Below are positions 18,337 to 20,925 of a stretch of DNA of 64,000 bases, piece by piece. Position numbers and translations under genes: made by a program. Where the stretch lies: the NCBI GenBank assembly GCA_015056365.1, contig SVGM01000005.1, positions 96,469-160,468 on the forward strand, read 5' to 3'. Below the pieces are notes generated by a model. The model was not told the DNA's origin. It did no database searches and was given only the letters and a program-made list of their open reading frames with translations. This stretch comes from Clostridiales bacterium. Its GTDB lineage: Bacteria > Bacillota > Clostridia > Christensenellales > Aristaeellaceae. Position 1 is the stretch's first letter; each line of letters begins with the position of its first letter.

Positions 18337-18615
18337 TTACTGCTCCTGGCAGAACTGAACCTTCAGGTGATAGTTTTCCCGGGCTGCATCTTCGAAGACG
18401 ATGCACAGGCGGGGCAGATACTCCGCCATCATGCCCTGAGGTTCCCGGGGCAACGTTACCGTTACGCTCAGATCGTTGGTCTCGCTGGTGAGCTCATCGT
18501 AGAGAGCGTCCAGGTTGCCGCCGTAGTAGAAAGGAAAGCCAAGGGTTTCCTTGAGATAGCTGTGCAGGGAAATCCGGTTGTCAAACGTAGTCAAATCAAG
18601 CGCAATCTCACGCAT
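18337..18615 (-). CDS. Barstar-family ribonuclease inhibitor
   Basis: A 92-residue protein. The barstar signature FPFYYGGNLDALYDEL (about residues 27-42) lines up with barstar 26-41: Tyr29, Asp35 and Asp39 of barstar are kept and Trp38 is Tyr. The second binding helix reads VFEDAARE, giving Asp for barstar Glu76 and keeping Glu80. Family knowledge: barstar plugs the barnase active site in the cytoplasm and protects the producer. It lies 18 bases downstream of the tandem barnase gene with AAGGAGGA before its ATG, so toxin and inhibitor share a transcript. It has no signal peptide, as expected for a cytoplasmic inhibitor. Confidence 0.92.
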   Translation of the reverse strand: MREIALDLTTFDNRISLHSYLKETLGFPFYYGGNLDALYDELTSETNDLSVTVTLPREPQGMMAEYLPRLCIVFEDAARENYHLKVQFCQEQ

Positions 18616-18633: not shown

Positions 18634-19566
18634 TCAATACAGTTGGATAAAGCTCTTGAAATTATCGTTGGTGTAGTAGATCAGGCCGTCGTTGGAATAG
18701 ACCAGGCGTTCGTTGCCGCGCTTGCCGTCATCGGTATTCACGTCGCACTGGAACCACTCGCGGCCGTCCGCATCGGGCAGGAGACCCTCCCGGTTGCCGA
18801 AGCTGTCGCCGCCGATGGCGCAGCCAGGCATCACTTCGCCCATGTTGTCTTTTTTGGCGGAGTAGCCATACTCCTCAGCTTCCTTCTTGGTCATGTAGTT
18901 GACAGGCAGTTCGCCAAAGAGGTAGAGGTAAGCGGCCACTTCATCAGCGGTGAGGTAGTCCATGCCTTCCTCCACCCATACTTCCTGATAATCCTCGCCA
19001 ACGCCTTGGATGATCTCTTCATCCTTCTTGTTTTCTTTCTTATTCTCTTTCTTGTTTTCCTTCTTTTCTTCCTTGGCGGGGGATTCGTCCACGATAACTT
19101 CCACCTGAGAGAAGCTCTCATAGTGATCGTCGGTGTAATAAATCAAACCGTCGTTGGAGAAAACGATACGCTTTGCGCCGCGGTAGCCGCCGTCAAAGTC
19201 GATGTCGCACTCAGTCCATTTGCGATTTTTCGCATCAGGCAGCTGGCCTTCGTAGTTGCCAAAGCGGTCGCCGCCGATGGAGCAGCCGGGGGCTACTTCG
19301 TCCAGATTGCCTTCACGATTGTTCCAGCCCAGATCTTCTGCCGCATTCTTGCGGATGAAGTTGGTGGGCAGCTTGCCATAGAGGGTCAGATACACCGCCA
19401 CTTCCTCCTTGGTGGAGTAGTAGCCGTTCTTTTCCACAGGATAATCGGACGCATACACAGTGATCACTTTTGCGGCCAGCGCGGGTGTCAGCAGAGACAG
19501 TGCCAGCACCACCATCAGCGCCAGGGCAACAAAACGGGTCAGAAAGTTGCGTTTCATCGTTTTCAT
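18634..19566 (-). CDS. Secreted tandem barnase-family ribonuclease (one intact, one catalytically altered domain)
   Basis: A 310-residue protein: signal peptide (cleavage near ALA-AK, residue 31), barnase domain 1 (about 50-156), a Lys/Glu/Asn linker of KKEN repeats (about 163-186), barnase domain 2 (about 203-310). Both align to barnase without gaps from K27 to H102 (offsets 46 and 200). Domain 1 keeps K73, E119, R129, R133 and H148 (barnase K27, E73, R83, R87, H102) but has Y105 for R59. Domain 2 keeps K227, R259, R283 and R287 but has Q273 for the general base E73 and N302 for the general acid H102. Each domain has a Cys pair (95/120, 249/274) that could form a disulfide. Domain 1 is probably an active RNase; domain 2 should be inactive but able to bind RNA or barstar. 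Either ATG 19566 (GGAG 2 bases away) or ATG 19557 could start it. Barstar follows. Confidence 0.93.
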   Translation of the reverse strand: MKTMKRNFLTRFVALALMVVLALSLLTPALAAKVITVYASDYPVEKNGYYSTKEEVAVYLTLYGKLPTNFIRKNAAEDLGWNNREGNLDEVAPGCSIGGDRFGNYEGQLPDAKNRKWTECDIDFDGGYRGAKRIVFSNDGLIYYTDDHYESFSQVEVIVDESPAKEEKKENKKENKKENKKDEEIIQGVGEDYQEVWVEEGMDYLTADEVAAYLYLFGELPVNYMTKKEAEEYGYSAKKDNMGEVMPGCAIGGDSFGNREGLLPDADGREWFQCDVNTDDGKRGNERLVYSNDGLIYYTNDNFKSFIQLY

Positions 19567-19896
19567 AGCTCCTTACTGTACAAATCTACTGCCGGCAGCA
19601 GGCAGCAGCCCGCCAAATTGCCGACAGTCCATTATAGCCCCTTCAAATGGGAAATGCAAGGCATGAAAACAGGCGGGACAAAAATGCCCCGCCCGGATAT
19701 GATCCCCTGTCCCACCCTCGTCTGTGGTCAATGCATGGTTGTAAAAAATGCACGGTTTGGGTGCATTTGTGCAGTGTCGGGGCCTAACAATCAACAGGGA
19801 GTTGCACCCCGCACCCGCCCCGGGCGCACTTGCAGTGTGGACTCATTCATTCTCAGCCACAGAGATCGCATTCACCCCGCAAACTACCAAATCATA
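19567..19896. other. Upstream region of the barnase operon
   Basis: No gene recognised. It holds the barnase promoter (19631-19659). A hairpin GGCGGG/CCCGCC with loop GCATTTTTGT on the minus strand (about 19671-19690), followed by TGTTTTC, could terminate the upstream DIP1984 gene. Short GTGCAT/ATGCAC repeats (19733-19777) were noted without explanation. Confidence 0.45.
19631..19659 (-). promoter_or_regulatory. Promoter of the barnase-barstar operon
   Basis: On the minus strand TTGCAT (19654-19659) and TATAAT (19631-19636) are separated by 17 bases, about 65 bases before the barnase start. Confidence 0.75.
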
Positions 19897-20346
19897 TCAA
19901 AGCTCCGTCATCCAGTTGGTTTCCTGGATCCGGTCATCCACCCGGCGCATCTCGGCGCAGGCGTCATCCAGCTGCTTTTGCAGCTGGGGCACGTCCACCG
20001 CGCTGAGGATCTTGATCTCCGTGCGGGCAGCACGGCGCGCCAGCTGGCTGGCAGCATTGACCAGGGAACGCCATGCCTCGATGCGTACTTTCAGCGCGTC
20101 CCTGCGGGCGATCCACTCCGTCAGTGTCAGCCCGTCCACAACGGTCTTGCTGTTAGTCAGGTTGATCTGGCCAATCAGCGTCTCCAGGCGGGCAATGCAG
20201 CCGTCCAGTTCCGCCATCAGCTGTGCAGGATCCTCGGCCGTCTTTTCGCCTTCCTGTACGGTAGCGTTATTGATAAGGCGGGTATTCAGCTGCTCAATAC
20301 GGCGGTTCAGATCTGCGCGCTCCTGCAGCGCCTGTGCAAGTTTCAT
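19897..20346 (-). CDS. DIP1984 family protein
   Basis: About 149 residues, mostly alpha-helical and charged (coiled-coil-like), with the family pattern MKLAQALQERADLNRRIEQL, then LINNATVQEGE, TNSKTVVDGLTLTEWIARRD and a closing RIQETNW-TEL. These match my memory of the DIP1984 family (sometimes labelled septicolysin), whose function is unknown. ATG 20346 is preferred over ATG 20352 because GGAG then has a 9-base spacing and family members begin MKLA. It lies 18 bases downstream of the GNAT gene and is probably co-transcribed with it. Confidence 0.8.
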   Translation of the reverse strand: MKLAQALQERADLNRRIEQLNTRLINNATVQEGEKTAEDPAQLMAELDGCIARLETLIGQINLTNSKTVVDGLTLTEWIARRDALKVRIEAWRSLVNAASQLARRAARTEIKILSAVDVPQLQKQLDDACAEMRRVDDRIQETNWMTEL

Positions 20347-20364
20347 TTTCATTCGCTCCTTTGC

Positions 20365-20832
20365 TTACATCACAATCAGATTGCTATATACGGTGTTTTC
20401 AGGTTCTCCGCCCGGAATGAACTCCGCGCCCACAGTTTTGCGGTAGAAGACTTCAGCGTCATCCACCCAGCCAATAATGGCGTAGCCGTAGCCATCCTCC
20501 CGCATGCATTCCAGCGTACGGATCAAAAGTGCGCTGCCAACCCCTTTACCCCGGGTCTCCTCCAGTACGCCGATGGGGCCGAAATACCCCTTGGCCGTGG
20601 AGTCATAGCAGGCAAAACCAAGCAGTCTGCCTTCCTCGGTCGCAATAAAGCACTTATGGCTAAGCAGGGCACATTCCGCCTCGGCCACCCAGCCAGCGGA
20701 AAAATGCTGCCGGACAAAGGCCAGAACCGCCTCCTTATCACCCACGAACGCGCGCTTGATCTTCACGCCTTGCGGTGCATTTCCCTGTGGCAAACGGGTC
20801 AGGTTGGCGATCATATCGCATCCTTCAAACAT
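20365..20832 (-). CDS. GNAT family N-acetyltransferase
   Basis: Start at ATG 20832 (GGAGGG six bases upstream), giving 155 residues. The acetyl-CoA binding motif A is visible as IGVLEETRGKGVGSALL (R-x-x-G-x-G type). It is followed by the C-terminal VFYRKTVGAEF strand-helix typical of GNAT enzymes. An in-frame extension up to 20937 is rejected as untranslated. The substrate cannot be told from sequence. First gene of a likely two-gene operon with DIP1984; divergent from the SDR gene. Confidence 0.85.
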   Translation of the reverse strand: MFEGCDMIANLTRLPQGNAPQGVKIKRAFVGDKEAVLAFVRQHFSAGWVAEAECALLSHKCFIATEEGRLLGFACYDSTAKGYFGPIGVLEETRGKGVGSALLIRTLECMREDGYGYAIIGWVDDAEVFYRKTVGAEFIPGGEPENTVYSNLIVM

Positions 20833-20925
20833 GGATTTCCCTCCAGATGATCTTTGACTGCAGTATACGACAGTTTCCCTCGAAAAACAAGAAGTCCGGC
20901 TGCCACGGAAACGATTTTTTCCATC

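Follow-up and report, generated by a model that had tools for sequence, protein, structure and literature searches.

A predicted secreted barnase pair of Clostridia in which one domain lacks the general acid

Why would a ribonuclease (RNase) of the barnase type be joined to a second barnase domain that lacks the catalytic residues? The question is raised by an open reading frame (ORF) of 310 amino acids (aa) at positions 18634-19566, minus strand, in a stretch of 64,000 nucleotides from Clostridiales bacterium contig SVGM01000005.1 (GCA_015056365.1), referred to here as the window. An earlier note made from the sequence alone had described this ORF, without its strand, as a two-domain barnase, and it is present as claimed. 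The answer that we favour, with a probability of roughly 45%, is that of a predicted secreted RNase in which domain 1 would cut RNA and domain 2 would hold it without cutting.

Two barnase domains with different active sites

Pfam detected two PF00545 matches in the 310-aa protein (whole protein E 2.8e-36, 124.4 bits against a cut-off of 24) and no other family; each domain taken alone also scores above the curated cut-off (75 and 54.1 bits). Neither the RNase nor the adjacent barstar had a match in NCBIfam, and PADLOC gave no match. The arrangement proposed earlier, two barnase folds joined by a Lys/Glu/Asn-rich linker and aligning to barnase without gaps, was recovered as follows.

19471..19566, minus strand: signal-peptide-like N-terminus, residues 1-32, ending TPALA-A (read from the translation; AlphaFold helix at 3-25)
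19102..19413, minus strand: domain 1, live barnase domain, residues 52-155 (barnase 6-109; ungapped alignment)
18958..19098, minus strand: Lys/Glu/Asn-rich linker, residues 157-203 (predicted local distance difference test, pLDDT, below 50 at residues 162-187)
18637..18951, minus strand: domain 2, dead barnase domain, residues 206-310 (barnase 6-110; ungapped alignment)

Secretion of the two-domain RNase is thus predicted from its N-terminus, and the linker is likely flexible according to the model. Two in-frame ATG codons occur at 19555-19566, the second of which (residue 4) corresponds to the start of many homologs in the alignment, and the true start may be 19557 instead of 19566.

In domain 1, where the barnase number equals the residue minus 46, the positions of interest are K73 (K27), Y105 (R59), E119 (E73), R129 (R83), R133 (R87) and H148 (H102). 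In domain 2, with a constant offset of 200, they are K227 (K27), R259 (R59), Q273 (E73), R283 (R83), R287 (R87), N302 (H102) and F303 (Y103). The catalytic Glu73 and His102 are therefore both present in domain 1 and both missing from domain 2, in which the codons of Gln273 (CAG) and Asn302 (AAT) are each one base away from a Glu or a His codon. All residues named in the earlier note (Y105, E119 and H148; R259, Q273 and N302), as well as the single-base nature of the last two changes, were found as stated.

Both domains are predicted to adopt the barnase fold, and the 50 matches listed by fold look-ups were barnase or binase (some of them fusions) and RNase Sa types. The dead mutants binase His101Asn (PDB 2rbi) and barnase H102A (PDB 2c4b) have the same fold as that predicted for domain 2. 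By fold and sequence, domain 2 is a barnase homolog and, as judged by its residues, an inactive member of the family.

The pairing in related genomes

In a protein search, 8000 candidates were scored and 120 paired relatives were listed, with 54-79% identity; with the window protein these form a set of 121, which was picked by likeness to a query having a dead domain 2, so that pairs of two live domains could escape. K27, E73, R83, R87 and H102 are all kept in domain 1 of the 121 listed pairs, and His103 occurs in 52 of their dead domains. The codons that set the two domains of the window protein apart, with their state in this set, are given below.

19252..19254, minus strand: Tyr105 codon (barnase R59 position); Tyr in 120/121 live domains, Phe in 1
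19210..19212, minus strand: Glu119 codon (barnase E73, general base); Glu in 121/121 live domains
19123..19125, minus strand: His148 codon (barnase H102, general acid); His in 121/121 live domains
18790..18792, minus strand: Arg259 codon (barnase R59), guanine loop of the dead domain; Arg in 109, Lys in 10, His in 1 and Ala in 1 of 121 dead domains
18748..18750, minus strand: Gln273 codon (barnase E73); Glu in 105 and Gln in 16 of 121 dead domains
18661..18663, minus strand: Asn302 codon (barnase H102); His in 0/121 dead domains (A 71, N 33, K 5, G 4, S 2, Q 2, R 2, D 1, gap 1)

The query bias of this search is partly offset by a PF00545 survey of genomes. Of 300 genomes in the family to which the window belongs, 227 gave a match; two matches were listed for 35 genomes, that of the window included, and lie in separate genes in five of them. 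The remaining 30, together with three more genomes of one genus, provide 33 distinct tandem loci from five genera, with a gap of 22-58 residues between the aligned domains; two of the added genomes came from our own profile and one from a repeat Pfam search, other single-match genomes having not all been checked for a weak second domain. No further PF00545 match was found in the window's genome (2.6-Mb assembly, 30 contigs, 88% complete). A sample of the class yielded a match in 57 of 391 genomes, and none of the 391 except the window's own had two listed matches in one frame, weak second domains having not been sought and long single-match frames being unchecked.

At all 33 tandem loci, one domain has Y59, E73 and H102, whereas H102 is missing from its partner, in which position 59 is R (30) or K (3). 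The live domain comes first in 28 loci and the dead one in five, all of a single genus. Position 102 of the dead domains is G (11), N (7), K (7), A (4), Q (1), E (1), R (1) or a gap (1), and position 103 is F (18), Y (9) or H (6); E73 is kept in 28 and replaced by Q in five, the window among them. As read from these alignments, the constant of the family is the loss of the general acid, and the general base looks to have been lost later and locally. The split between a live domain and a catalytically stripped one thus extends to the relatives, and a pair with E73, H102 and R59 in both domains, the case that the earlier note had set against its proposal, was found neither among the 121 listed proteins nor at the 33 loci. 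The note had asked whether E73Q and H102N always occur together; they do not, since the residue found at position 102 may be A, N, K, G, S, Q, R, D or E; a linked pair was rejected because E73Q is the minority state (5/33) and H102 loss the constant one. Two unusual cases were observed, namely L138, whose dead domain has Asn at 60 and a gap at 102, and an RNase match in a relative (G254:C41:747-1043) that contains one internal TAA.

The ratio of nonsynonymous to synonymous substitution rates (dN/dS), obtained by a simple counting method from pairs that are not independent, has a median of 0.26 (range 0.03-0.64) for the dead and 0.18 for the live domain of live-first loci (148 of 378 pairs usable, 230 unusable), and of 0.19 and 0.13, respectively, at reversed-order loci (6 of 10 usable, 4 unusable). 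The dead domain is under purifying selection. Strain noise was rejected on the basis of these low values and of the residue pattern in the 121 listed proteins. When dead domains are compared to live or single ones, column 102 shows the greatest loss of constraint among 105, followed by 57, 103 and 27. F56, N58, R/K59, E60, R83 and R87 are near-fixed in dead domains, with a mean entropy of 0.14 bits for these six columns versus 1.13 for random sets (0.05% of 10,000 as low), a test that cannot tell ligand binding from fold constraint. Shared loss of catalytic residues, a predicted fold and retained purifying selection together mark the dead domain as a putative pseudoenzyme.

The earlier note had also regarded the changes in the two domains as complementary, because domain 1 has Tyr in place of Arg59. 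This part was rejected. Y59 is usual in single-domain relatives with an intact catalytic set: Y59 and H102 occur together in all 117 single-domain proteins nearest to domain 1, and among 78 distinct single domains from genome loci (identical and gappy ones removed) H102 is found in 78 and Y59 in 68. In addition, we take Tyr45 of RNase T1 to be the structural equivalent of barnase R59, and this Tyr45 contacts guanine (PMC9266746). Nothing therefore marks domain 1 as impaired by Y59. Among the 118 single-domain proteins nearest to domain 2, R59 is present in 101 and H102 in 115; the three lacking H102 (P0245, P0246 and P0338) are on contigs of 578-817 bases, and P0245 and P0246 group with dead domains in the tree. 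Single-domain loci also include a divergent member with T59 and A60 that keeps H102 (L054). Of five long single-domain RNases analysed with Pfam, L120 carries PG_binding_1, L049 TPM and L111 a sub-threshold SH3_3, and no Pfam match was obtained for the long N-terminal parts of L098 and L065.

Readings of the second domain

Few enzymes have been measured as thoroughly as barnase, whose standard inactive forms are mutants of H102. One H102A construct gave no significant RNA hydrolysis (PMC10018487), and H102A barnase has been studied as a complex with d(CGAC) (PMC6306431). Taken together with the conserved guanine loop, these results suggest that domain 2 likely binds RNA without cutting it. RNA would be caught at G residues by the guanine loop and the phosphate-binding arginines of this domain and, by means of the flexible linker, be concentrated near the live site, in the way that binding modules serve other depolymerases; barstar would guard the cytosol from the live domain until export. 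Of the earlier proposal of a cutter joined to an RNA binder, the split of the catalytic set is observed and RNA binding fits the retained residues; what falls is the complementarity of the changes.

Several observations weigh against RNA holding. The full-length model has a predicted template modelling score (pTM) of 0.49, so that the domain arrangement is of low confidence, and the retention of R83, R87 and N58 may serve the fold. Of the 33 dead domains, 8 have Leu in place of K27 and 15 have a change at G57. Dead domains are also more acidic, which is unfavourable for RNA binding, with a median net charge of -5 versus -1 for live domains (-9 versus -6 in the window). Finally, three loci of the same genus (L041, L050 and L053) are single-domain and do without a dead domain, and three genomes of that genus (G003, G006 and G007) list no PF00545 match.

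The alternative that survives best, still an unlikely one, is a structural role, in which the protein would be a one-chain equivalent of the binase or barnase dimer, its dead domain being a permanent second subunit by which the live site is stabilised, shielded or partly covered, with RNA binding as a side effect. Binase and barnase do dimerise, with one site blocked in binase crystals (PMC4281067; PMC8837141), and dead domains have retained their fold and core. For such a partner the guanine loop (N58, R/K59, E60) could be dispensed with, yet it is kept; the low-confidence linker of variable length predicts no fixed contact, and the domain order is reversed at five loci. In the proposal of the binase authors, moreover, the two sites of the dimer would both be functional in solution (PMC4281067).

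Less probable again is that domain 2, as the earlier note also considered, serves as a decoy by binding barstar, either its own or that of a neighbour, and so freeing the live domain. The inhibitor gene lies immediately downstream on the same strand.

18337-18615, minus strand: barstar gene, 92 aa (PF01337, E 5e-13; D35 and D39 kept in the alignment to barstar)

The 18-base gap that separates it from the RNase gene contains an AAGGAGG site, and the two genes are likely in one operon. Barstar adjoins all 33 tandem loci and lies beside 51 of 64 single-domain loci, 31 duplicate loci having been dropped before this count and before the first tree below; the 64 still include one repeat (L011/L057). 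The difference in adjacency between a subset of 26 tandem loci and the singles has a Fisher p of 0.017, uncorrected for kinship. Position 76 of barstar showed no split between the two groups (acidic in 26/26 versus 46/51). No barstar was detected in the examined stretch at L034, L046, L054, L056, L061, L067, L068, L072, L074, L079, L086, L087 and L088, where some stretches end early and a divergent inhibitor may be present. Barstars of L094-L097 (genus g10, reversed order) and of L039, the single-domain locus nearest in the tree to the dead domain of reversed-order loci, have a C-terminal extension that is absent from the window's barstar.

A decoy would fit the retention in domain 2 of K227, R259, R283 and R287, the barnase counterparts of which contact barstar, and the finding that full inhibition of binase and balifase took barstar at 1:2 and 1:4, respectively, credited by the authors to dimers (PMC8837141 for both). 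When all 28 loci with the live domain first are taken, the divergence of barstar correlates with that of the dead and of the live domain to much the same extent (partial r 0.38 and 0.36, respectively; p 0.0005 for both). At the 14 nearest loci, which were picked by hand, it correlates with the live domain (partial r 0.55, p 0.001), with no clear correlation for the dead one (0.17, p 0.11). The H102A change in barnase increases the off-rate of barstar by about 4 orders of magnitude (PMC11408511), and a secreted trap for the cell's own cytosolic inhibitor would presumably be a danger to the producer. Overall, the barstar data lean against a decoy.

That domain 2 targets something other than RNA, such as cell wall, a polyanion or a receptor, with the barnase fold as a mere scaffold, appears slightly less probable than the decoy. 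The PG_binding_1, TPM and sub-threshold SH3_3 matches of some single relatives and the acidity of dead domains are in its favour, yet the patch that is conserved coincides with the nucleotide site. Residual cleavage by domain 2 through other residues, for instance a His at 103 or Glu73, is improbable: although E73 is kept in 105 and His103 present in 52 of the 121 listed dead domains, domain 2 of the window has neither E73 nor H102 and has Phe at 103, His is found there at only six of the 33 genome loci, and H102A alone was enough to leave no significant activity in the barnase construct (PMC10018487). Least likely of all is a decaying tandem leftover without a function of its own, which could be suggested by single-domain members within the genus, one of them (L041) inside the live-domain group, but which conflicts with the low dN/dS of the dead domain and its maintenance over five genera.

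Origin of the dead domain and relation to known systems

Phylogenetic trees were based on 100 columns. The first included 63 singles (repeat L011/L057 dropped); the second was built without L054, near-duplicates, three of 118 single proteins that were gappy and three of the remaining 43. In free trees, the dead groups of the two domain orders stand apart and two losses of H102 are needed. By the approximately unbiased (AU) test, a single dead clade was not rejected (p-AU 0.397 and 0.373 in two tests), nor was a single clade of live first domains (p-AU 0.104). In the second tree, domain 2 lies beside P0274, an R59-type single domain with H102 (support 96/81), as would fit the fusion of an R59-type barnase; a tree in which it is constrained to the live group, as for a copy of domain 1, was not rejected either (p-AU 0.515), the constrained tree scoring slightly higher. 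Two origins are suggested, mainly by the reversed order; a single origin or plain duplication is compatible with the tests.

The closest known system is barnase of Bacillus amyloliquefaciens (PF00545, RNase N1-T1 family) with its inhibitor barstar (PF01337), from which the present protein differs in having two domains per chain, the second dead by its residues, and Tyr59 in the live one. The binase His101Asn and barnase H102A mutants have lost the same position, at which Asn is found in the window and Ala in 71 of the 121 listed dead domains. These laboratory mutants are engineered single domains, whereas in the present family the position was lost naturally, the loss is inherited and the domain concerned is joined to a live one. 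The binase dimer likewise has two barnase folds and one accessible site in the crystal (PMC4281067), but it is non-covalent and both of its enzymes are intact, whereas the present pair is covalent and mutation has removed one of its two sites. Two RNase units per construct are also found in engineered tandem RNase A and dibarnase immuno-derivatives; these are artificial, and the excerpt describes no deliberately dead unit (PMC6901985). In polymorphic toxins, modules for trafficking or processing, or repeats, precede a C-terminal toxin domain, and the modes of trafficking listed include a plain signal peptide (PMC3482391); in the present protein, PF00545 was the only family found by Pfam. The earlier note knew of no barnase with a dead second domain, and a search of the open-licence literature, judged by titles and the beginnings of abstracts, agrees in that no natural tandem or live/dead barnase pair was found. 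The fold, the enzyme and the inhibitor are already known; the natural pairing of a live with a dead barnase is the part that appears to be new.

One further observation at the locus concerns a 735-codon open frame on the plus strand (window 18643-20850), antisense to the RNase gene and extending beyond it, which is probably a by-product of base composition.

With slightly less confidence than for the reading of the window protein itself, we propose that gut Clostridia may have turned a barnase into an RNA-holding pseudo-RNase and attached it to an active one, possibly on two occasions and with the domain order reversed between them. The natural loss of H102 in one domain of each pair examined, under selection, offers a clean test of what a dead enzyme copy does, and this question is directly testable since the residues, the measured mutants, the inhibitor and the assays exist. 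If RNA holding is true, the dead domain would be nature's own H102A mutant and the RNA counterpart of carbohydrate-binding modules.
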